Source of the DNA: an uncultured Candidatus Saccharibacteria bacterium
GTDB lineage: Bacteria; Patescibacteriota; Saccharimonadia; Saccharimonadales; Saccharimonadaceae
Direction: 5' to 3'
Length of the DNA: 40,690 bases
NCBI GenBank assembly: GCA_946415265.1
Contig: CAMKRV010000006.1
Location: forward strand, 1-40,690
This document shows positions 394-13,638 of the stretch, one piece after another; the stretch's first letter is position 1, and every line of letters starts with the position of its first letter. Position numbers and translations under genes: made by a program. The notes beneath the pieces were generated by a model. That model saw nothing but the letters and a program-made list of their open reading frames with translations. It ran no database searches and was not told where the DNA came from.

Positions 394-1854
394 TTATCCT
401 TTCCAATAATAGTTGCGGTGCCTAGCTCGCGGAGAATTAAGCACCGATTTATCGAGGAGTTCCACCTCTCGTGGCTCAGAGACATATTCATAAATGCTCG
501 CCAGTACGTCTACCGCATCATCGTGAGCGTTTTTACCTTTCTTTTGGTAGCTCATGACTTGGCGATAGAACTCTGGGAAGCGTTGCCGCCATCCGAGCGG
601 CATATAAATATGATTCTGAACCCAAGCGGAAGACGCTAGGATCCTCGATTCCTTATTATGTGTCTGTGGAACTGCACGAATATCACAGCGATTGCTTGAA
701 TATTTCTCGTTCAGTATTCGCTCTACATTCCGGGCAAATCCTCGGCCGCCATTATTACTCTCAATATGCGCCGTAGTGGTTTCTCCAGAGAATAAAAGGT
801 CGGCTACTTGATTTTCCGTCGTCTCCATCGCGTCATCAGTAAATACTAAATCTGTAATATAAAACTCGTTTTGGTAGATTATGCCATTTATAGAGCACAG
901 GAAGTCTGTTCCAGTATCGGCAGTATCGGTAAAGTTAATTACTTCGGAATGCGGTGGCAACTTTTCCCATTCTTTGAACTCGCCGTAGAGTCTGCCACCC
1001 ACATCAATTGGTTGCTGATTGTAGTTCGCCTCGACGATATCTTGGTTCATTTCTCGAGTTTTGATTTCATAGTCATGCCGGCTCAGTATTTCGTCGCAGA
1101 GCATTTCGCCATCATCTTGGACGGCTTTCATAGTAATCGTCTCTACGTCGTCTCCATAGGCACTCACGATCCGTCCGGCAAGGTCTCCGAGCGCCCAGCG
1201 TGTCATAATTACTATCACTTTCCAGTCATTGCCCTCGAGACGTTGAATCATTGTATTTGTAAACCACGCCCAATGTTTGTCCAGTGTCATCTCATTATAG
1301 GCTTCTTCGGCGTTTTTGATGATATCGTCAATCAGAACTATATTTGCGCCAAAACCTGTTGCGGTGCCAGTCGGAGAAGTCGCAAGGTAATTATTCTTGC
1401 TACTTCCGGTCAGCGCCCATAGGCTTGCACTCGCTTGGCCGCGTTTAATTTGGGTATGAGGAAAGATATCGGAATAGACTATATGATTATTATCGGCTTT
1501 GCGCTCCGAAATCGTATCTCGTACTTTTCTTGCGAATGATGTAGATAGAATTTCATTATATGATCCGGTCATTACTGCTATCTCTGGATTCTGACCGAAT
1601 AGCCATTCTACAAGGCAGGTTGCCGTAAAGCTCTTATAGTGACGTGGTGGCAGGTTTATTACGAGGAAGTGTTTCTTGCTTTGTTTCATGAAACCTTGAA
1701 TCTTATTACAGATTTCTGTCAGGTACTTCCGGCTCTTTTGGTAATGATTAGGGTAGAGAAGTCGACAATAGCCAATAAAACTCTTGCGAGCTAGAGATAA
1801 TCTCATCTCACGAACTTGATCTTGATCTAGTCTCAATTCTTCAATCGTTGGCAC
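394..1854 (-). CDS. terL: phage terminase large subunit (TerL)
   Basis: Packaging motor: an N-terminal ATPase drives DNA into the prohead and a C-terminal RNase H-like nuclease cuts the concatemer. Seen in the 486-aa product: Walker A variant LPPRHYKS at 68-75 (the usual Gly is Tyr), Walker B NIVLIDDI at 171-178, nuclease acids in FTDTADTGTDF, then IESNNGGRG and the terminal HDDAVD at 444-449. Length is typical of the family. The start is GTG at 1854; it shares one base with the stop of the gene upstream (TAGTG) and has GGAGAAG as ribosome-binding site. It sits between the small-terminase candidate and the portal, the classic packaging order. Confidence 0.93.
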   Translation of the reverse strand: MPTIEELRLDQDQVREMRLSLARKSFIGYCRLLYPNHYQKSRKYLTEICNKIQGFMKQSKKHFLVINLPPRHYKSFTATCLVEWLFGQNPEIAVMTGSYNEILSTSFARKVRDTISERKADNNHIVYSDIFPHTQIKRGQASASLWALTGSSKNNYLATSPTGTATGFGANIVLIDDIIKNAEEAYNEMTLDKHWAWFTNTMIQRLEGNDWKVIVIMTRWALGDLAGRIVSAYGDDVETITMKAVQDDGEMLCDEILSRHDYEIKTREMNQDIVEANYNQQPIDVGGRLYGEFKEWEKLPPHSEVINFTDTADTGTDFLCSINGIIYQNEFYITDLVFTDDAMETTENQVADLLFSGETTTAHIESNNGGRGFARNVERILNEKYSSNRCDIRAVPQTHNKESRILASSAWVQNHIYMPLGWRQRFPEFYRQVMSYQKKGKNAHDDAVDVLASIYEYVSEPREVELLDKSVLNSPRARHRNYYWKG

Positions 1855-2324
1855 TATTCGTCTTCTCCTAATAGCTTGCGTAGTTCTTCTACGGTTAGTT
1901 CATCGTACGGACTTTTCTTTTCCTCATAGATTTCCATATCTATCGGTTGAGTAGGTAAGCCCTCAGCTTGATTCATTGTTTCTACGAAGTCTTTGGTACT
2001 TCTTACGGCTCGGCTAGCTTGCGCTAAAGCAAGATATTCGCCATATGGAGTCTTTTTGTTGTTTTTAGCGTCTTGAATGCGTTTTTCTACTTCTTCGGTA
2101 GGAACGCTCCAAAGTTTCCTTAGTTGGTATCTTGGCGAATGCTTCGGGTAGAAATGGTCGTCATCATTTATATTGTAGATATCCTGTGGTCTGTCACGGA
2201 AAGTCGTTGGTGGTTGATACCCTTTAATGAAACGGCCTTTTGCGTCTCGTTTTTTATCCACTTGTAAACAAGTGGATGACCTCTGTTGCTTTTTGGTCGT
2301 TTTTTTAGACTTTTTCGTGGTCAT
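1854..2324 (-). CDS. putative terminase small subunit (DUF5681-like N-terminus)
   Basis: A 156-aa basic protein directly upstream of TerL. The N-terminus is Lys/Thr-rich and followed by a KRDAKGRFIKGYQPP segment that resembles the GRFxKGxSGNP motif of DUF5681 proteins found next to terminases. The C-terminal part is helical and acidic, ending in an EELRKLLGEDE tail. By position it is the best candidate for the DNA-recognising small terminase. I chose the ATG at 2324 because GAGG lies 7-8 nt upstream; a longer in-frame version would run 54 nt further into the methyltransferase gene. It overlaps the 3' end of that gene by 20 nt. Function is inferred from position plus weak motif resemblance. 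Confidence 0.55.
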   Translation of the reverse strand: MTTKKSKKTTKKQQRSSTCLQVDKKRDAKGRFIKGYQPPTTFRDRPQDIYNINDDDHFYPKHSPRYQLRKLWSVPTEEVEKRIQDAKNNKKTPYGEYLALAQASRAVRSTKDFVETMNQAEGLPTQPIDMEIYEEKKSPYDELTVEELRKLLGEDE

Positions 2325-3606
2325 TATTGGCCTCAACTTTCGGCGTAAAATCTTCCCATCCGGTGTCATCATCGTCATGGTCGAGCTTGTTTATGAAACG
2401 GAAGTAACGTTTTCTAATTACATCGCAGAATTTTGGATCTAGCTCCATGCCATAGCAAATACGGCCGGTCTGTTCAGCGGCGATGATTGAGCTGCCGCTA
2501 CCAGTAAATAAATCGAGCACGATTTGATTCGGTCTTGAGCTGTTCATCATCGCGTTCGCTCCGAGAGTTACTGGTTTCTGCGTAGGATGAACGTAAGTCG
2601 TCACTTTGTCGCGATCAAAATCCCAGACCGTTGATTCGTTCCGAAGATTCTCAATCATCTTAACGAGCTGTTCTTTTTTCATCTCGTTAAGGTCTCGGCG
2701 CTTTAAGCCAAGAACGGTCTTTTTGTCACGTCCGCCATACCATTTAGCGTGATGATCTTTGCGCCATAGGTACATACAGGCCTCGTGTGCGTAGTGATAG
2801 TCGTAGCGTCCAAGCGTCATGCCTTTGTTCCAAATCAATTCCTCTTTATAAACGAAGCCGACATCTTCGAGCGCCTTTCTGAACTCAATGTGATTGCTAC
2901 TAGCGAACCAGCAGTAGACCGCCGCTTCTGGGGAAACAAAGCCCTCGGCTGCTGAAAATGCGTCGAAGAGGAAATCGTATAGCACAGTATCTTTGAGATC
3001 GTCGTTCTTGATTGAGCCTCGGCGCTTGCTCTTGTAGTTTACACCATATGGCGGATCGGTATATAGCAGGCTTGCAGTTTTGCCATTCATTAGCGTTTCT
3101 ACATCCTCAAGTTTTGTGGAGTCGCCGCACATTAGTCGATGTTCGCCAAGCTTATATACTTCGCCGTATTTACTAACCGGCTCGTTTTTTTCATCTAGTT
3201 CTGGCGCTATATCTTCTTCGATTTCTTTTTCCGGCTCGTCTAGTTCAATATCTAAGCCAAGATCGGCAAGATTCAAATCTCCCCATTCTTCAGAAAGTTT
3301 ATCTAGATCCCACTCGCCGTTATTGACGTTGTCGCGGATCACAATTTCGCGTTCACGTTCTTCAGTTAAGCCCTTAAGAAGATAAGTTGGCACTTCCTTT
3401 AAACCGAGATATTTAGCTGCATCGTAGCGCTGATTACCGGCAATAATTACGAGTTCGCCAGTACGGTCAGAGAGAAGAAGCGGCCTCGCCTCGAAATAAT
3501 CTGGATTATCTTTTATGGATTTTACAAGTATCTGAAAATCTTCACTAGATATTTTCCGAGGATTATTTTCAAGTTTCCTTAAATCTTCGAGTTTTCGGTA
3601 TTCCAT
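2305..3606 (-). CDS. ParB-like domain fused to DNA amino-methyltransferase (phage)
   Basis: A 433-aa two-domain protein. Residues 1-100 are ParB/sulfiredoxin-like (AGNQRYDAAKYLG at 56-68), a domain common in phage methyltransferases. Residues 145-420 form an N6-adenine or N4-cytosine methyltransferase: catalytic TDPPYG at 183-188, HPTQKP at 340-345, and SAM-binding LDLFTGSGSS at 364-373. Catalytic motif before SAM motif is the order of beta-class enzymes. An acidic linker (about 120-145) joins the domains. It may protect phage DNA from host restriction or mark packaging substrates; the target sequence cannot be read from the gene. It is the second gene of the leftward packaging operon and carries its own ribosome-binding site (AAAGGA). 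Confidence 0.88.
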   Translation of the reverse strand: MEYRKLEDLRKLENNPRKISSEDFQILVKSIKDNPDYFEARPLLLSDRTGELVIIAGNQRYDAAKYLGLKEVPTYLLKGLTEEREREIVIRDNVNNGEWDLDKLSEEWGDLNLADLGLDIELDEPEKEIEEDIAPELDEKNEPVSKYGEVYKLGEHRLMCGDSTKLEDVETLMNGKTASLLYTDPPYGVNYKSKRRGSIKNDDLKDTVLYDFLFDAFSAAEGFVSPEAAVYCWFASSNHIEFRKALEDVGFVYKEELIWNKGMTLGRYDYHYAHEACMYLWRKDHHAKWYGGRDKKTVLGLKRRDLNEMKKEQLVKMIENLRNESTVWDFDRDKVTTYVHPTQKPVTLGANAMMNSSRPNQIVLDLFTGSGSSIIAAEQTGRICYGMELDPKFCDVIRKRYFRFINKLDHDDDDTGWEDFTPKVEANNDHEKV

Positions 3607-3642: not shown

Positions 3643-4074
3643 TTATTTTCTGATTTGATGTGGGTAATTTCGATCATATCTATTCCTTTCTTTATATCTT
3701 CGGCTTGATTCTTCGAGGATCTCAACCAGATCTGCTATTGTTTTTGGTGGAAATTTTCCTCGGTATCCGATAAATCGCATCTCAAAGCGTCTACGAAGAC
3801 CTTTATCGGCTTCGTCTGTTACAATTCCAGCTTCAATCGCAATCCGATTTAGTGGCAGGTAGAAGAGATAGAGTCTTTTGCCACGTACTCGCGCCCAGAA
3901 AGCCTTATTGAGCTTACGTTCGACTAGAATATCATCTAGCGCATACATCGCTTGTTCTAGCGCCTCTAAATACCGATATTTAGTTATGCATTGTTTTCTG
4001 TGGGTAGCAAAGCGGTCGCAGACGACACGCGTCGTCGTTAATACCTCCAGCTCCCGGAGTGAAATGTTTTTCAT
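3643..4074 (-). CDS. unknown phage protein, first gene of packaging operon
   Basis: I do not recognise this 143-aa protein. It is strongly basic (many Arg/Lys, including RRYKERNRYDRN near the end), mostly helical, with no membrane segment or signal peptide. A middle region (ARVRGKRLYLFYLPLNRIAIEAG) could be a small nucleic-acid-binding fold. In phages of Gram-positive bacteria the gene just upstream of the terminase is often a late-gene activator (ArpU/RinA type), so a regulatory role is possible, but that is positional inference only. The start is supported by AAGGCGG upstream. It is separated from the divergent lysis genes by the compact promoter region at 4098-4231. Confidence 0.6.
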   Translation of the reverse strand: MKNISLRELEVLTTTRVVCDRFATHRKQCITKYRYLEALEQAMYALDDILVERKLNKAFWARVRGKRLYLFYLPLNRIAIEAGIVTDEADKGLRRRFEMRFIGYRGKFPPKTIADLVEILEESSRRYKERNRYDRNYPHQIRK

Positions 4075-4521: not shown

Positions 4522-5466
4522 ATGCTTAAAGGTATTGATATTTCGCATTGGCAGGCGAATTTAGATATCGCCTCTACTGGCGCACAATTTGTTATTTGTA
4601 AGGCCACTCAGGGTACGACTTTTGTCGATTCGAGCTGTGATCGCCATTATCAGATTGCTAAAAGACTAGGCTTGAAACTTGGTGTTTATCACTACGCTTC
4701 CGGTGGCGATCCTGTCGCAGAGGCCGATTTCTTCGTCCGCAATATTAAAGGCTATATCGGCGAAGCTATTCTTATTCTCGATTGGGAAAAGAATCAGAAC
4801 GGCCGTTATCACGAGCATGCTTCGTGGTGCCTAAAATTCTTGAATCGAGTTAAGGAATTGACAGGAGTTAAGCCGCTCATCTACATGAGCGCTAGTGTTA
4901 TCAAGGCTGCCGATTGGTCTTCGATTGTTGCCGGAGATTACGGATTGTGGGTTGCCGGTTATCCAGATAATCGTGATAGTTGGGATATTCCTCAATTTAT
5001 CTGGAATGTATCGCCATGGCCTTTCTATGCTATTTGGCAATACACTAGCTCTGGTGGTCGCCTTGATCGCGATGTCTTTATGGGTGATAGTACGGCTTGG
5101 GATAAATACGCAGCCATTAATGGCCAGCCAGTAAATCCATCTCCTGCACCGGCTCCAGCAAGGAAAACAAACGAAGAGCTAGCTACTGAGGTTATTCGTG
5201 GTGATTGGGGAAACGGACAAGATCGCAAGAACCGTTTAACTGCCGCAGGATACGATTATGGTGCTGTTCAAAGCATTGTTAATCAAAGGCTTGGAGGCTC
5301 AACTAACTCGGGTGGATCTGGCGAGGTCTGGTATACTGTCAAATCTGGAGATACGCTTTGGGCTATTGCTCAGCGTTATGGTACTACTTATCAAGAAATC
5401 GCTCGGCTTTCTGGTATTTCGAATCCGAACCTAATCTACCCAGGACAGAGAGTGAGGGTGAAATAA
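4522..5466 (+). CDS. phage endolysin: GH25 muramidase with CW_7 and LysM wall-binding domains
   Basis: Cleaves the MurNAc-GlcNAc bond of host peptidoglycan at lysis. The 314-aa protein has a GH25 catalytic domain (1-195) with DISHWQ at 6-11 and the catalytic DWE at 87-89; a single CW_7 (Cpl-7-type) repeat at about 217-257 ([17 protein letters not shown]); a Gly/Ser linker; and one LysM domain at 270-313 ([17 protein letters not shown] ... IYPGQRVRV). There is no signal peptide, so release depends on the holin next door. AGGAGG precedes the ATG and the stop overlaps the holin start (TAATG). Use of CW_7 and LysM implies that the host wall is conventional peptidoglycan. Confidence 0.95.
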
Positions 5467-5675
5467 TGCTACCAGATAAGGTTTACGAAGTTCTGCGTTG
5501 GCTCATAGCAGTTTTTCTACCGGCGCTTGGCGTATTTTTCTCAACGCTTGCAGAGGCTTGGCACTGGAATCTACCGACAGAGGCGATTCTGACTACTTTG
5601 TCGGCCGTAGAGCTGTTTTTAGGTGCTATTTTCGGTATTTCTAAGGTAATCTACGATCGGAAAACTAATGCCTAA
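5466..5675 (+). CDS. phage holin (two transmembrane segments)
   Basis: A 69-aa protein with two predicted membrane helices (about 11-31 and 40-62) joined by a short WHWNLP turn and a basic tail ending DRKTNA. Size, topology and position directly after the endolysin match small holins that form the membrane lesion letting endolysin out. The start ATG overlaps the endolysin stop, giving translational coupling. An in-frame upstream extension would run inside the endolysin gene and has no support. No named holin family is claimed. Confidence 0.82.
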   Translation: MLPDKVYEVLRWLIAVFLPALGVFFSTLAEAWHWNLPTEAILTTLSAVELFLGAIFGISKVIYDRKTNA

Positions 5676-5691
5676 GATGACTTATGGGGAA

Positions 5692-5819
5692 TAAAAAAAG
5701 ACCTGTTAGGTCTATCTGGTTCGCCCTTGATAGGCACATCAGAAGGGGGTGTTACCCAAACAGGCACTTCCTTAGGCGACTCGCGCGCAGTTAGCGCCGC
5801 CGGCCTATCAAGAGTTCTT
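5692..5819 (-). ncRNA. structured small RNA candidate, ~128 nt, with own promoter and terminator
   Basis: Read leftward, an extended -10 promoter (TGATATAAT) is followed by an RNA closed by a perfect 10-bp stem: CTTGATAGGC (5803-5812 read on minus) with GCCTATCAAG (5726-5735). Inside are two arms, one with GGCG/CGCC (5775-5778 with 5795-5798) and one with GGGT-aac-ACCC (5747-5757) extended by AAGG/CCTT. The RNA ends in AGACCT-aac-AGGTCT followed by seven Ts. There is no open reading frame of note. It lies antisense to nothing but abuts the lysis operon's 3' end. I compared it by eye with SRP RNA, 6S, RNase P and tmRNA and see no match. The three-way-junction fold and terminator are direct observations; function is unknown. 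Confidence 0.72.
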
Positions 5820-5825
5820 AAGTAT

Positions 5826-5853
5826 ATTATATCATATATATTCAATAGAACAA
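5826..5853 (-). promoter_or_regulatory. promoter of the leftward ncRNA
   Basis: Minus strand: TTGTTC, 16-bp spacer, TATAAT with extended TGA. Predicted start near 5819, 7 nt before the closing stem of the ncRNA. Confidence 0.65.
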
Positions 5854-5868
5854 AATCCCGAAAAAGAC

Positions 5869-5897
5869 TTGTAAAAATCTCAAATTAAGGTTAAATA
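5869..5897 (+). promoter_or_regulatory. rightward promoter before structured leader
   Basis: TTGTAA, 17-bp spacer, TAAATA. The predicted start (about 5904) coincides with the first base pair of the GC-rich stem that follows. Confidence 0.5.
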
Positions 5898-5904
5898 CAA
5901 ACAC

Positions 5905-5987
5905 CTTGCGAGGATCCGGCCGCGATTAGTGGAGTCAGTCGAGCAGGCCGCTCCTCTCGATGTGGCGTCGCGGCCTCGCAGGGCAAG
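5905..5987 (+). ncRNA. GC-rich structured 5' leader (cis element candidate)
   Basis: The transcript appears to begin with a nested hairpin: CTTGC (5905-5909) pairs with GCAAG (5983-5987), GGCCGCGA (5918-5925) with TCGCGGCC (5968-5975), TCGAG (5939-5943) with CTCGA (5956-5960). It stands out in an AT-rich neighbourhood. The ribosome-binding site of the first small gene (AAGGAG, 5995-6000) lies 8 nt beyond the stem and is free. It could be a 5'-end stabiliser, a protein-binding leader or a riboswitch-like element. No known riboswitch class is recognised. Confidence 0.6.
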
Positions 5988-6840: not shown

Positions 6841-6865
6841 AAGGTGTTTGCGATATAATATTAGT

Positions 6866-9460
6866 ATGACTCTTTTAGAGTATTTCAATAAATATCCGAG
6901 CCTTGATTCACCAAAAGCTGTTTTGGAGAGACTTTTTGTTTCTAGCGTTTTTTATCCTGATTTTGGAGATAAAGGTTTAGAAATTCTTACGCCTCAAGTG
7001 CCTATCTATAATGATAGTACTGGTGAGAACTATTTTATTGACTTTGTTCTTGAAACTCCAACAGCTAAATACGCTATCGAAACGGATGGCCTCTATTATC
7101 ATGCCGCAGGCGCTGTTAGCAAAGAGTATTTTAGTAAACTACAACGCAAGCAGAACGAAATTATCAACCAAGGATATAGACTTTTCCGCTTGACTAGCAC
7201 GAACATAAAAGAAAATCCCGGCGATGCTAAATATGAGATGCGTAGGTTCTTTATCGCCGATAAATACTTAGACGATCTGCGGAAGGGGGTGTCTGATGGT
7301 ATTCATCCTCACGAGATACAGCAAGAGGCGCTCGAAAAGTTGGAGGAAACTCGTGAAAAAGGCAACAAGCGCGGTCTAGTCTGTATTGCCACTGGGGTAG
7401 GCAAGACGTATCTTTCGGCTTTTGATGTTAAGTTAACTGAATCTGACAAAGTACTATTCGTAGTTCATATAAAAGAAATTCTCAGGCAAAGTGAAGCGTC
7501 CTTTGAAGATGTGTTGTTCGATCGTCGAAAGCAAATGGGATTCCTGCATGGAGAATTAAAGGATATTGATAAAAACATCATCTTTTCATCTATTCAGACT
7601 ATCGGTAAAGAAAGATACTTAAAACAATTCGATCCTGAATATTTTGATTATATTATTATCGATGAGACTCATCATATTGCGGCCGAGTCTTATAGAAGAT
7701 TATTTGAATATTTCAAACCCAAGAAATTCTTCCTAGGCCTTACGGCAACAAGAGAAAGGACCGATCGTAAAGAGATTCTGCCTTTCTTCAACAATAACTT
7801 AGTTTACGAGATTGACCAAAAAACAGCTATTGATAAGGCTATGCTTGTACCTTATAAATACTATGGCTTTAAGGATGATGTAGATTATAGCGATATTCGA
7901 TGGAACGGTTTTAAATATAATGTCCAGGATTTGAATAAAGCATTAATGATTGAACGTCGAGATTCGGCAATTTTGGATAAGTTCAAAGAGTATTGTCCGA
8001 ATCGAAAAACCATTGGATTCTGCGTTTCAATCGAGCACGCTAATTATATGGCTGATTTGTTTAATAGAAATGGTTTTTCTGCGATTGCTATACACTCGAA
8101 ATCCGAGGATGAAAATTCGATTGATATTCCAAAAGAAACTGCTGAAAAAATAAAAGCTTTCAGGGATGGAAAATATCAGGTCGCCTTTGTCGTTGATATG
8201 TTTAATGAGGGTGTAGATGTTAAAGACGTTTCATGTCTTTTGTTCTTGCGTCCAACAGAGTCCAAGACTATTTTCATCCAGCAAATGGGACGTGGTTTAC
8301 GTTTGTCTCCAGCAACGAATAAGCAGGATGTTATCATTCTTGACTTCATCGGCAACTATAAAACAGCATACAAAATTCTTACAGGATTAGGCTTGACCGG
8401 CGGAGGACTTGGAGGATTTGTACCAGTCGAGGGTGGTAACGAACGCGAAAAGAAAATGCTGTATAAGTATGACAATAACGGATCGGCTGTTTATTTCCAG
8501 GACGAAGTGATAGATGTTCTAAAAGAAATCCAATCCGCGTCAACAAAGGAGGTTCAGAAAGAACTAATATCAGAGAAATGGGATACGTACGGTAAATATT
8601 TGGCTGAATCTTCAAGAGACAATTTGTATTTCAAATTAGGTCAGCAAAATAAAGATATTGTTTCTCAACTTGAGGCAATTGCTATCCTTAAAAAGAATCA
8701 AGGTATTGATGATGAAAGTTTTAAGGATCTTCTTAAAGCAAACAATATTTCGGGTATGACGGCAGGTTTTAGGAGTCTATTTCTAGGTAAAGTTCTGGGC
8801 TTGTTAAAAACTCCTAGCGATATAACCGAAATCTTCGACGAAATACAGTCACGTGTCAATGCAAAAAACGGTGGCGACTTCGGCGTTATCGCAAATTATG
8901 ATGATATTCTTACGAGACAACTTGAAAAGATGGCATACTTTAGCCCAATCAATAGTCCAACGAATAAATACAGGTCAAGAGAGAATCGTGTTCAATATAC
9001 ACAGATTGGTACTTATATAATTCCTTTCATAGCTTTACTTATTAATGAACTAAGAGAAAAATATGATTATAATGATAATCGATTGAGCTATGATGAGATT
9101 GAATTTTTCGCCGCATTTGCGCATAGCTTAGATGAATATGAAAGTGTTGCTGAGATGATTTCAGAGTATCGTCATTACGACAATAAGCCTGAATTGACGA
9201 AATATTTGAGGAAATCTACAGAAAAAGCAGATTTGAGAATTCGCTCCATATTGAAGTATGTTTCTTATTTCAATGTAGATAATGATGGCGTAAAGATCTT
9301 GGACGAGAATATTGAGGCCGTTGCGCAAAAATGCATGGAGCTCAAAAAACTAATAGACGATAATAAAATAATCGATCCATCAGTCGCCGAAGAAATGTAC
9401 CTAAAGATGTTATACTCCAAGGAATCTCTTATTGATTTTCATAATAATCATCGAGCATAG
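6866..9460 (+). CDS. PD-(D/E)XK-like nuclease fused to SF2 helicase (restriction/defence)
   Basis: An 864-aa protein. Residues 30-130 resemble DUF559/Vsr-type PD-(D/E)XK nucleases: FIDF with D59, then IETDG with E72/D74, a downstream K/R-rich helix and GYRLFRLT. Residues 145-500 are a DEAD/DEAH helicase: IQQEAL Q-motif, Walker A ATGVGKT at 175-181, DETH at 266-269, TAT at 293-295, and QQMGRGLRLSP. The last ~350 residues are helical and unrecognised. Such proteins act as restriction or anti-phage effectors that translocate on and cut DNA; two methyltransferases lie directly downstream on the other strand. TATAAT at 6854-6859 overlaps any longer in-frame start, so I chose the ATG at 6866, 6 nt after the -10: probably leaderless. 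Confidence 0.85.
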   Translation: MTLLEYFNKYPSLDSPKAVLERLFVSSVFYPDFGDKGLEILTPQVPIYNDSTGENYFIDFVLETPTAKYAIETDGLYYHAAGAVSKEYFSKLQRKQNEIINQGYRLFRLTSTNIKENPGDAKYEMRRFFIADKYLDDLRKGVSDGIHPHEIQQEALEKLEETREKGNKRGLVCIATGVGKTYLSAFDVKLTESDKVLFVVHIKEILRQSEASFEDVLFDRRKQMGFLHGELKDIDKNIIFSSIQTIGKERYLKQFDPEYFDYIIIDETHHIAAESYRRLFEYFKPKKFFLGLTATRERTDRKEILPFFNNNLVYEIDQKTAIDKAMLVPYKYYGFKDDVDYSDIRWNGFKYNVQDLNKALMIERRDSAILDKFKEYCPNRKTIGFCVSIEHANYMADLFNRNGFSAIAIHSKSEDENSIDIPKETAEKIKAFRDGKYQVAFVVDMFNEGVDVKDVSCLLFLRPTESKTIFIQQMGRGLRLSPATNKQDVIILDFIGNYKTAYKILTGLGLTGGGLGGFVPVEGGNEREKKMLYKYDNNGSAVYFQDEVIDVLKEIQSASTKEVQKELISEKWDTYGKYLAESSRDNLYFKLGQQNKDIVSQLEAIAILKKNQGIDDESFKDLLKANNISGMTAGFRSLFLGKVLGLLKTPSDITEIFDEIQSRVNAKNGGDFGVIANYDDILTRQLEKMAYFSPINSPTNKYRSRENRVQYTQIGTYIIPFIALLINELREKYDYNDNRLSYDEIEFFAAFAHSLDEYESVAEMISEYRHYDNKPELTKYLRKSTEKADLRIRSILKYVSYFNVDNDGVKILDENIEAVAQKCMELKKLIDDNKIIDPSVAEEMYLKMLYSKESLIDFHNNHRA

Positions 9461-10448
9461 CTTTTACGCCTTTTGAAACAGCGTAAGATAGCTTTACGGG
9501 AACAGCATTACCAACTTGTTTATACTGCTTTAGTCGTGGACCACAGAATACGAAGTCGTCTGGAAATGTTTGGATTCTAGCTCCCTCGCGTACCGTTAGA
9601 GTCCTATCTTCATATGGATGCGTCACGTATCCTACAGATGGAGTATCAAACCTCGTGGTTAATGTTTTTGATGGTTTGGTGGGATCTATCCTGCCATATG
9701 CTCCACTATGGATTGATTTAGTTTGCAATTCTGGTGGCAGATTTGTCCAGTTTTGGCCGGGTTTTAACATTTGAACTCTTTTTAGCGTTACTCCAGTAAG
9801 CTTTCTCGGCTCATGATTTGGTGCATTCTCCGGGATATCCTTGAGAGCCTCTCCGACCGACACCTTATTCGGATGCTTTGTAGGGAATATATTTTTCTCG
9901 CCAATTTTATTAGCCATTATTATTACACGTTCGCGAGCTTGAGGAACGCCATAATCTGAAGCGTCTAGTAACTTGTAGTCAGCCTTATAGCCTCGATTTT
10001 CGAAACTTAATAGGATATCTTTAACTATGCCGCCATTATGACTAGATAATATGCCTTTAACATTCTCTATGATCGCTACCTTTGGTTTTACTATGTCTAG
10101 GATTCGGAAGTATTCTTTATATAAGAAGTGTCTTGGATCATCCGAATTGTCAATTCCTTTACGTATTCTATATCCGGCCATTGAGAAAGACTGGCACGGG
10201 ATACCACCGACGACTAAGTCCACTTCCTTATCACCAATAATGTCGCGAATTTGCTTTTCTGTAATCTTTGACACGTCTCCGTCTATAAATGGAGTGTCTT
10301 TATGGTTATATTTATATGTTTCAGCCGCATATTCATCAAAATCGTTTGCGAATAATGTTTTAAAGCCATTTTCTTCGAACCCCATCGCAAGGCCACCAAC
10401 TCCAGCGAATAAATCAACTACGCTATAATGTCCATCCGAATTTGCCAT
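9429..10448 (-). CDS. C5-cytosine DNA methyltransferase (Dcm type)
   Basis: A 339-aa 5-methylcytosine methyltransferase. Motif I VDLFAGVGG at 11-19, catalytic GGIPCQSFS with C85, ENV at 128-130, QARER at 170-174 and the final QVGNAVP near 320 are all intact. The target-recognition region (about 200-280) is compact. Start ATG at 10448 has GAGGAG 7 nt upstream; the longer in-frame version lacks this. It overlaps the upstream amino-methyltransferase by 26 nt and the convergent helicase gene by 32 nt at their 3' ends, an unusually tight arrangement that ties the three genes together as one module, most simply restriction plus two protecting methylases. Confidence 0.93.
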   Translation of the reverse strand: MANSDGHYSVVDLFAGVGGLAMGFEENGFKTLFANDFDEYAAETYKYNHKDTPFIDGDVSKITEKQIRDIIGDKEVDLVVGGIPCQSFSMAGYRIRKGIDNSDDPRHFLYKEYFRILDIVKPKVAIIENVKGILSSHNGGIVKDILLSFENRGYKADYKLLDASDYGVPQARERVIIMANKIGEKNIFPTKHPNKVSVGEALKDIPENAPNHEPRKLTGVTLKRVQMLKPGQNWTNLPPELQTKSIHSGAYGRIDPTKPSKTLTTRFDTPSVGYVTHPYEDRTLTVREGARIQTFPDDFVFCGPRLKQYKQVGNAVPVKLSYAVSKGVKAMLDDYYENQ

Positions 10449-12009
10449 CAGGTTGCTCCTCGTAATTAAATGTTTTAGCAATAAACTTATCAATATCTAG
10501 TAACTTATCGTCAGAGCCGTAATACGCTCGCTCTTTGATGATTCGTGGGATTAGTTTTTCGTATAAATCCGCTGTAGTCACATACTTCTGTTTCTTAGTG
10601 AATTCTTTTATTGTATCTAGTATGATTTGCTCACCATTTTTGTGGTCATCAGAGAATTCACAAGGTTTATCTAACTTTTTAAATGTGTAGACAAAGTCTC
10701 CCTTAAGAGTGTTTTTGCGATTTAGCCCTTGGGTGCCAGACGCGACGGGTTGATCCACCCATTTAACGTTAATTAGGTCAAAGCCTGCAGAATAGACGGC
10801 GTCAATTACTATCTTCCAATACTTAACGTGACGATTATTAAAGGTAAATGACATATAACTATTCTTTTTAAGTACTCGATATACTTCTTTGAATACTTTA
10901 TCGAGCCTCACAGAGTAATCTTTTTCGCGTTTATTCCTGTAAGGATCTATAATAATTTCATTCTTATAGTCTACTGTATGATTGAGCCAAGTCGACCAGA
11001 ATGAAGACAGAGCAAAGTAAGAAATACTATCACCGTATGGCGGATCCGTAAATACGTAATCAACCGTTTCATCATCTAGAAAACTTATTTTTTCGCTACT
11101 CGTATTACTGATTTTATACTCGGTCTCGGTAAGTAGTTTTTCGACATCTTGTTTGCCTTTAATAATTTTCTCGAGACGCATTCTTAGGGTATTAATAGCG
11201 TTTTTCTCGGCATGAACTTTTGGCACCCAGAACTTACTAATCTGCCATCCGGATTTACCATTTACGGTCTTTTTATCGGCCGGGATCATGCTGCTGAAGT
11301 TTGGGAGAGCAGAAGAGAACACCAGCAATAGTACATCTCTGATTTTCTTATCATTGATTTTATTAATACCCGTAATCACAAAAGCCGCAATCAGTAGGTT
11401 TCTCTCAGTGAATAATTCGTTTATATACTCTTTTCCGCTCCTCTTCACATAATCCATAATCTTGTCTTTTGGATAAGATATATAGCCGAGATCTTCATAT
11501 TTTTTTAGCACTTCTTTAGCTAATTCCGCTCTAGCGATATCGGTTTCGTCGGCATCTTTGATCATTCGTACGGTATCTCTGTAATATTTTATCCTGACCA
11601 ATTTGCCTTCTTCCCATACAGCATTGTCTATTAGCCAGTCGTTTCCATCTTCTCCGGTTGTATAAGTTAGATCAATAACATCCTCGGGAATCGAGTCTAT
11701 TACGTCTTCAAATTTTTGTCGCAGATCGTCATAGTCGATACCGGTCAGCAGTGTAGTTTCAGTTATGAAACAAGCCATAGGATTCAAATCTATCCCAATA
11801 GCTTTTCTTTCTAGCTTATTAGATTCGATAGGTACACCACCACTCCCCATGAATGGATCTAGGACAGTGTCGCCTTTTTTTGTGAATAGATTTATATAGT
11901 CATCAAGAAGATTATGAGGTTTTCTACCCCAATATTTATGGAGCATGTAGTATGATGGGTGCGCTTGCGGCACTACTGATAATTGTTCGAGCTTTTCCTC
12001 CACTTGCAT
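10423..12009 (-). CDS. DNA amino-methyltransferase (N4/N6) with large insertion
   Basis: A 528-aa protein. N-terminus HPSYYMLHKYWGRKPHNLL followed by SAM-binding DPFMGSGG at 51-58 and catalytic TDPPYGDS at 321-328. SAM motif before catalytic motif is the alpha/gamma-like order; about 260 residues between them probably hold the target-recognition domain. The 'HKYWGRKP' opening is typical of a family of methylases often found in defence islands. It starts 7 nt downstream of an extended -10 (TGGTATAAT, minus strand 12022-12017) and so is likely leaderless. The C-terminal 80 residues are helical. Substrate sequence unknown. Confidence 0.87.
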   Translation of the reverse strand: MQVEEKLEQLSVVPQAHPSYYMLHKYWGRKPHNLLDDYINLFTKKGDTVLDPFMGSGGVPIESNKLERKAIGIDLNPMACFITETTLLTGIDYDDLRQKFEDVIDSIPEDVIDLTYTTGEDGNDWLIDNAVWEEGKLVRIKYYRDTVRMIKDADETDIARAELAKEVLKKYEDLGYISYPKDKIMDYVKRSGKEYINELFTERNLLIAAFVITGINKINDKKIRDVLLLVFSSALPNFSSMIPADKKTVNGKSGWQISKFWVPKVHAEKNAINTLRMRLEKIIKGKQDVEKLLTETEYKISNTSSEKISFLDDETVDYVFTDPPYGDSISYFALSSFWSTWLNHTVDYKNEIIIDPYRNKREKDYSVRLDKVFKEVYRVLKKNSYMSFTFNNRHVKYWKIVIDAVYSAGFDLINVKWVDQPVASGTQGLNRKNTLKGDFVYTFKKLDKPCEFSDDHKNGEQIILDTIKEFTKKQKYVTTADLYEKLIPRIIKERAYYGSDDKLLDIDKFIAKTFNYEEQPDGKFGWTL

Positions 12010-12022: not shown

Positions 12023-12097
12023 CCACTTTTATAACAAAATTGAAGATGAATAGAGACATGAAATAATAGATAAAGATTAGCGTTTTTAACGAAAATG

Positions 12098-12106
12098 TGT
12101 TATAAT
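12098..12106 (+). promoter_or_regulatory. rightward promoter P1 (extended -10)
   Basis: TGTTATAAT with TTTAAC-like sequence upstream. The dyad GCCAC-tcct-GTGGC starts about 10 nt downstream and could be an operator. Confidence 0.5.
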
Positions 12107-12175
12107 AATAGATGTGCCACTCCTGTGGCGTAATTTGATAGTAACCTAGGCAATGCGATCGGTGGATCGAAGTCG

Positions 12176-12203
12176 TTGACTTATATTTTACTTAAGGTAT
12201 AAT
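12176..12203 (+). promoter_or_regulatory. rightward promoter P2 (TTGACT-16-TATAAT)
   Basis: One of the best sigma-70-like promoters in the window: TTGACT, 16-bp spacer, TATAAT. It drives the attenuator-like leader and, if read through, the integrase operon. Confidence 0.7.
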
Positions 12204-12231
12204 AGAATTAATCAACGAAATTGCGAATAAC

Positions 12232-12282
12232 GGCTCCGCCTTAGGAGCCAAAGCTCCTATGACGAAAAATAGGAGCTTTTTT
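12232..12282 (+). promoter_or_regulatory. attenuator-like leader with mutually exclusive hairpins
   Basis: Four segments: GGCTCC (12232-12237), TAGGAGCC (12242-12249), AGCTCCTAT (12252-12260) and ATAGGAGCT (12269-12277) followed by T6. Segments 1:2 and 3:4 form a protecting hairpin plus a 9-bp terminator; segments 2:3 form a 7-bp antiterminator with a CAAA loop. If no readthrough occurs, P2 simply makes a ~70-nt RNA. The alternative pairings are directly visible; regulation is inferred. Confidence 0.65.
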
Positions 12283-12293
12283 AGGACTTCCTG

Positions 12294-12695: not shown

Positions 12696-12732
12696 TTTGA
12701 GAGACTGGCTTCGCCTAGCAGAAAGGACAATA

Positions 12733-13638
12733 ATGAAGCCAGATATTTCATTAACTGAGGCTTTCGAGCTGTTTAGGGTGGAACAAATAGTATATAAGAA
12801 TCAGTCGGATCGTACCGAAGAAATGCATGGTTTAGCTCTCAGGCTACTCCTTGAGTTTTTTGGCGAGGATATCATGATGTCCGAATTAGATTTTGACAAG
12901 ATTCGTAGGTGGAAAGATTGGTTATCCAAAAATAAGAAGCCCAACACGGTTCGCGGTTACATCATTAAATTGCGCGTCGTTGTTAAGCATCTCCAATTAA
13001 AGGGTTATCCAGTTATTAACCACGAGTTGATCGGGATCCCGAAAAGGGATGCAACGGTCGTCGATTTTCTTGAGGTAGATGAAGTCAAGAAGTTGATCCA
13101 AGCTACATTTAAGAAGTCTCCCGGCTACTCAAAATTCAAAAGGTATCGTAATCGTGCTATGCTTTCGTTGCTTTTTAGTTCCGGTGTTCGCAACGGTGAG
13201 CTTTGTGCTATTAATGCCTGTCAAATTAAGCCGGGGGACAATACATTTACCATTATCGGAAAGGGCAATAAATCTCGTCTTTGCTTTATGGATGATGAAA
13301 CTCATAAATATATTGACGAGTATATGGCTCTGCGGAACGACAATTGCCCGGCGCTGTTTGTTTCGGAGAAGAATAAATACGCTAGAATCTCAAATGAGGT
13401 CGTCCAGATGGTGGTCAAGAATAGCGCTGAAAAGGCAGGCTTACGTAAGTCGGTTCATCCGCACACTTTGAGGCATTCATTTGCCACGGATCTACTCCGT
13501 AATAATACCAATATTGTGTATGTTAAGGAGTTTCTCGGCCATGAAAGTATCCAGACCACCATGACCTACACTCATGTCGTCGATGAGGATCTTAAAGCTA
13601 TTCATATGGCCAAGCATACTACTATCGCAGTCGCATAA
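12733..13638 (+). CDS. int: tyrosine recombinase / phage integrase (XerC/D-like)
   Basis: Catalyses site-specific integration and excision of the prophage. The 301-aa product has an N-terminal SAM-like core-binding domain (about 5-95) and a C-terminal catalytic domain with the full set of residues: R153 (SGVRNGE), K178/K180 (GKGNKSR), H244-x-x-R247 (HPHTLRHS), H270 (FLGHES) and nucleophile Y279 (TYTH). No arm-binding domain is visible, so it is a short XerD-like enzyme. I chose the ATG at 12733 because AAAGGA sits 6-8 nt before it; a TTG 36 nt upstream is less likely. It is followed by a terminator and, 250 bp on, by the tRNA-derived attachment site. Confidence 0.94.
   Translation: MKPDISLTEAFELFRVEQIVYKNQSDRTEEMHGLALRLLLEFFGEDIMMSELDFDKIRRWKDWLSKNKKPNTVRGYIIKLRVVVKHLQLKGYPVINHELIGIPKRDATVVDFLEVDEVKKLIQATFKKSPGYSKFKRYRNRAMLSLLFSSGVRNGELCAINACQIKPGDNTFTIIGKGNKSRLCFMDDETHKYIDEYMALRNDNCPALFVSEKNKYARISNEVVQMVVKNSAEKAGLRKSVHPHTLRHSFATDLLRNNTNIVYVKEFLGHESIQTTMTYTHVVDEDLKAIHMAKHTTIAVA

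Follow-up and report, generated by a model that had tools for sequence, protein, structure and literature searches.

We found that a prophage of an ultra-small Saccharibacteria bacterium, located in the left part of the window, by which we mean the whole 40,690-nucleotide stretch analysed here (contig 6 of a 773-kb draft genome), carries a short gene for a predicted small RNA (sRNA) that is an insert in this prophage and is absent from about ten related prophages and phages. Comparison of its copies indicated a real, covariation-supported RNA family that is uncatalogued in Rfam. We favour, with a probability of roughly 0.6, the reading that this is a stand-alone, horizontally gained sRNA gene, an 'RNA moron' of the prophage whose product would act in trans. 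The features discussed are listed in Table 1.

Table 1. Coordinates of the sRNA gene, its parts and its surroundings (window positions unless stated otherwise).
Feature	Position	Strand	Details
Large terminase (TerL)	394-1854	-	ordinary large-terminase type
ParB-methyltransferase	2305-3606	-	
Endolysin (GH25, CW_7, LysM)	4522-5466	+	neighbour of the insert, outside it
Holin, Dp-1 type	5466-5675	+	Pfam PF16938, PHROG 881
Inserted segment, 185 bp	5665..5849		replaces one G of the ancestral GAAAA-G-AAAACCCCGAAAAAGAC, close to the holin gene's 3' end
sRNA gene, about 128 nt (predicted)	5692..5819	-	match to model R2 (136.5 bits; the model itself includes this copy) and homologues in G198 and G106
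Extended -10 promoter element TGATATAAT	5834-5826	-	sequence, alignment A4, shuffle test
P1 closing stem, 5' strand	5804..5814	-	11 pairs with 5724-5734
P2 arm	5775..5801	-	outer 4 bp, bulge, inner stem
P3-P4 arm	5740..5772	-	UAAGGAAGU ... UGGGYAACACCCCCUUC; invariant columns in alignments A4/A6
P1 closing stem, 3' strand	5724..5734	-	pairs with 5804-5814
Invariant sequence GGGCGAACCAG	5716..5726	-	final P1 bases and the linker preceding the terminator
Intrinsic terminator AGACCTAACAGGTCTTTTTTT	5713-5692	-	six-pair hairpin, then T7
Leader hairpin, upstream of the next small ORF	5905..5985	+	covarying; outside the insert
Integrase	12697-13638	+	
2108-codon gene with LPD38 domain (G198:C1)	L073 4651-10977	-	carries the sRNA unit antisense

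The initial annotation had proposed an undescribed RNA with its own transcription signals, built from an extended -10 element, a perfect 10-bp closing stem and a strong terminator. All of these are present on the minus strand within 5692-5834, and the promoter and terminator signals are conserved in the three copies of the unit described below. From the position of the -10 box, the sRNA is predicted to start near 5819-5820. The inverted repeat CTTGATAGGC/GCCTATCAAG joins 5803-5812 with 5726-5735 in 10 perfect base pairs, or 11-12 when G-U pairs are counted. The window has two cases of an extended -10 element followed 80-190 nt on by a hairpin and T6, and 200 dinucleotide shuffles had none; 10-bp inverted repeats by themselves are not rare, with 11 in the window and 2-13 in the shuffles. 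The folding energy of the sRNA strand was unexceptional (z about -1.9; core -1.5), and the complementary strand of the window copy folded better (z about -3.3; core -3.0). The inner stem of P2 is weak in the window copy. The junction and the strand of the RNA are established through the homologues, and the window sequence alone would show neither.

The homologues were detected with a single-sequence covariance model, built for this first search on the better-folding plus strand. Among 174 same-genus genomes it identified two, G198 and G106 (E 9e-8 and 2e-7), both of them Candidatus Saccharibacteria MAGs of the same genus as the window genome. Three copies are thus known in total, one per genome, and 3 of the 174 genus genomes carry the unit. 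Everything from promoter to terminator is common to all three, including the -10 box, the closing stem, the internal arms, the linker and the terminator. In both homologues the extended -10 element is TGGTATACT, at the position equivalent to that of the window element, and the terminator consists of a hairpin and a T-run of six. Only on the minus strand is the hairpin followed by a T-run, which fixed the strand of the sRNA as minus. The three-sequence model scored the homologues at 130-138 bits, values that are high by construction.

RNAalifold analysis of the three sequences produced a three-way junction and the terminator, with 93.5% of the cells of the consensus structure pairing. The fold with two internal arms that had been proposed for the window copy is therefore the consensus of the three sequences, although not the minimum-energy fold of the window sRNA. 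At 10 of the 36 pairs both sides had changed but still paired, as counted on the sequences from which the structure was derived: five in P1, two in the P2 arm (one outer and one inner pair) and three in the terminator hairpin, next to which the T-run is unchanged. None of 500 column shuffles reached the observed covariation, and sliding the partner by 1-3 columns left 0-1. Compensatory change in the closing stem had been set as one test of the initial annotation, and P1 indeed keeps all of its 11 pairs (100%) in the three sequences; for example, CUUGAUAGG/CCUAUCAAG in the window has CCUAGUGG/CCACUAGG as its counterpart in G198. The P3-P4 arm is the most sequence-conserved part. Both of its segments, as well as GGGCGAACCAG, are nearly invariant, and the P3 loop between the two segments varies in length by 24-28 nt. 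One pattern running across P1, P2 and the terminator would be hard to obtain without selection for RNA structure. Since there are only three copies the conservation statistics are thin, and since G198 and G106 are closer to each other than to the window copy the compensatory changes may represent few independent events.

The site of insertion is documented by relatives that lack the unit. Two IMG/VR phages (endolysins 86% identical) are colinear with the window and have the site uninterrupted, and the same uninterrupted site was found in eight same-genus prophages (G181, G111, G126, G101, G009, G032, G001 and G168), an example of the empty site being GACCGAAAAGAAAACCCCGAAAAAGACTTGTAA. The insert alters the C-terminus of the holin from ..DRKENPEKDL to ..DRKTNA and truncates its reading frame, with the former coding tail persisting to the right of the insert. 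A-rich sequence was found at or adjoining the insertion sites of all three copies. No target duplication was seen at the window, G198 or G106 copies, where A-rich sites could conceal a short one, and no terminal inverted repeats were seen at the three copies, of which the window copy alone has established exact ends. Further along the prophage, between the lysis genes and the integrase, positions 6848-12009 contain a helicase-type restriction gene and two DNA methyltransferase-like genes, likely a phage-borne restriction-modification system. Upstream of the integrase gene lies a second intergenic stretch that resembles a transcription unit (12097-12285, plus strand). It has an extended -10 element TGTTATAAT and an additional promoter-like pair (TTGACT/TATAAT), and its strong hairpin with a T-run ends near 12283; it matched no Rfam family.

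The other two copies reside in different surroundings, and no neighbour gene is common to the three. The G198 copy lies on a 198-kb contig, in frame within the 2108-codon gene, in a prophage with major-head, tail-fibre and amidase genes and a site-specific recombinase-like gene at its flank. Translations read by eye suggested chromosomal flanks, with FtsH- and MurJ-like genes on one side and Tgt-, CysS- and RecR-like genes on the other. A search of IMG/VR for empty sites of the 2108-codon gene turned up no relative. The part of this gene that precedes the sRNA unit has relatives that are short separate ORFs in G007, G110 and G027. The G106 copy (MAG Tb.RUG.198) is intergenic and close to a contig end, with a YbjQ-like gene on one side and tRNA-Val on the other; its location among housekeeping genes looks chromosomal, the alternative being a decayed phage end. 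No empty site was found for it, and the arrangement differs in neighbouring genomes. We also noticed that the end of contig G106:C41 (L074 8718-8858) and the end of G106:C15 (L190) have exactly 141 bp in common at tRNA-Val, as expected for a branch of the assembly graph at the 3' end of the tRNA, which may mark an integration site used by part of the population.

Searches further afield yielded no additional members. No Rfam 15 family scored above gathering anywhere in the window, and a relaxed search with the three copies gave chance matches only, in line with the initial comparison with known bacterial RNAs. BLASTN against phages and plasmids returned nothing beyond chance, and against 100 relatives only short chance matches, mostly AT-rich. 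The exact closing-stem pattern had zero matches in IMG/VR; searches of IMG/VR and about 85,000 genomes with core-motif patterns recovered the two known homologues only, with the rest at chance score, and model R2 detected no further copies in 393 order-level and 380 phylum-level genomes. As the large-scale searches called for exact motifs or applied strict filters, they may have overlooked diverged members. A match in G051 (E 0.04) was not counted, as little is kept beyond the terminator and P1 is broken. A limited literature search found no sRNA in Saccharibacteria or their phages, about which little seems to be known.

The initial annotation had also tied the RNA to the divergent structured leader. 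This leader (Table 1) is a second, covarying RNA structure, independent of the sRNA: it was found in eight prophages and phages, with both-side changes at 7 of 37 pairs, and most relatives without the insert retain it, which speaks against the proposed connection. In the related prophages of G044 and G168 the leader is absent, and hardly any gap separates the conserved AGGTTAAATACAA motif from the ATG of the next gene. Where the leader is present, its invariant CCGCTCCT could base-pair with AAGGAG, the Shine-Dalgarno sequence of the gene behind it, and so mask it.

Based on these data, we propose how the sRNA gene might work. Host RNA polymerase would read it from the extended -10 element to its own terminator, yielding an RNA of about 128 nt that would fold into a three-way junction of P1, P2 and P3-P4, with a short linker and the terminator behind it. 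Compensatory change is tolerated in P1, P2 and the terminator hairpin, which therefore look like a scaffold, whereas the P3-P4 arm and the linker are nearly invariant in sequence and so probably form the surface that contacts a protein or another RNA. As the three copies share no neighbour, action in trans is most likely, probably through the P3-P4 arm and the linker, by an accessory RNA expressed from the resident prophage and presumably of benefit to prophage or host. In the three genomes GGGCGAACCAG has no other exact complement, making simple antisense pairing through the whole of it unlikely; the sRNA may instead bind a protein or pair through other parts. The gene has the marks of a moron in that it is inserted among phage genes and absent from close relatives (the eight prophages and the two IMG/VR phages), with its own promoter and terminator as conserved sequence signals. 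The exact empty sites provide natural controls, and a comparison of carriers with non-carriers allows tests of any effect of the sRNA on lysogeny, lysis timing or competing phages.

The main rival of this moron reading is that the insert is a small non-autonomous mobile DNA element, similar to a MITE or a Rickettsia palindromic element, with the RNA as a mere passenger. This is possible, and we consider it distinctly less probable. It would account for the clean insertion relative to the empty sites, for the three unrelated A-rich locations and for the in-frame copy in a 2108-codon gene, as is reported for Rickettsia palindromic elements (PMC10969869). However, each genome holds a single copy and the remaining 171 genus genomes none, and neither terminal inverted repeats nor a target duplication was seen, though a short duplication could be hidden at the A-rich sites. 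Furthermore, what is conserved extends from the -10 box to the terminator, and a DNA element needs neither a T-run nor a covarying terminator. We entertain just as tentatively a transposable sRNA gene, in which promoter, structured RNA and terminator would move together between Saccharibacteria phage and host genomes. It might land at A-rich sites, on one occasion leaving a protein frame on the opposite strand open. Should it move by itself, it would be exceptionally small for a mobile unit and would carry a complete RNA gene as its cargo. Retro-insertion of the RNA, to which T-run priming and the A-rich sites could have pointed, was set aside, as the conserved -10 box would be outside the transcript.

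The remaining explanations appear far less probable than a mobile element. A junction aptamer, a linker and a terminator form a usual layout of a riboswitch, and the sRNA could on that ground be a ligand-sensing attenuator. We think this improbable, since the roughly 1.6 kb downstream on the same strand is without a convincing gene (the next notable minus-strand gene is at 3643-4074), no convincing same-strand gene lies near the G198 copy either, and Rfam offers no match. Even more doubtful is the lysis-related regulatory or packaging role suggested in the initial annotation. The sRNA gene converges on the holin gene in the window, as would suit antisense control of the lysis genes in cis, and a packaging RNA of the phi29 type likewise has a three-way junction. 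Yet about ten relatives keep the lysis genes with the site empty, and the examined stretches of these relatives, among them one with an 88% identical TerL, did not reveal the unit. The homologous copies do not adjoin lysis genes, which speaks strongly against either role. As relatives with the same genes manage without the sRNA, neither role is supported. Equally implausible is a conserved plus-strand peptide (..PGSPLVANQEGGVTQ..), a linker of a large phage protein with the window and G106 copies as gene fragments. The frame does run open across the unit in G198, as it does in the window copy (ORF 5727-5888). In G106, however, its length differs by 4 nt, which is not a multiple of three, and it contains a stop; no sRNA segment is visible in the related genes of G007, G110, G027 and G185. 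The changes in the stems are paired, and the strand that keeps the promoter and terminator is the opposite one, on which, in agreement with the initial annotation, a reading of the three-copy alignment revealed no conserved ORF.

Among known systems, the packaging RNA of phi29 (pRNA, Rfam RF00044) resembles the sRNA in being phage-borne with a three-way junction. In contrast to it, the sRNA gives no RF00044 match, has relatives of its phage that do without it, and is not located beside packaging genes, the ordinary TerL gene being 3.8 kb away. Rickettsia palindromic elements, of about 150 bp, are reported to occur in frame within protein genes (PMC10969869), and the same review points to studies of MITEs and of the evolution of small RNAs in Coxiella. 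Like these elements and MITEs, the unit measures about 150-185 bp, contains internal palindromes and occupies unrelated sites, once in frame in a protein gene; unlike them, it is single-copy per genome and carries complete transcription signals, and the window copy, in contrast to that of G198, truncates the frame it entered. The moron reading finds its closest parallels in prophage-encoded sRNAs and anti-sRNAs such as AgvB of E. coli O157 prophages (PMC4104026), and in accessory 'moron' loci, which are expressed in lysogens (PMC7067206). The present RNA, predicted from sequence, differs from these in its structured three-way junction and its Saccharibacteria host; it shares with them a gene that is seemingly self-contained, accessory to the phage and absent from relatives.
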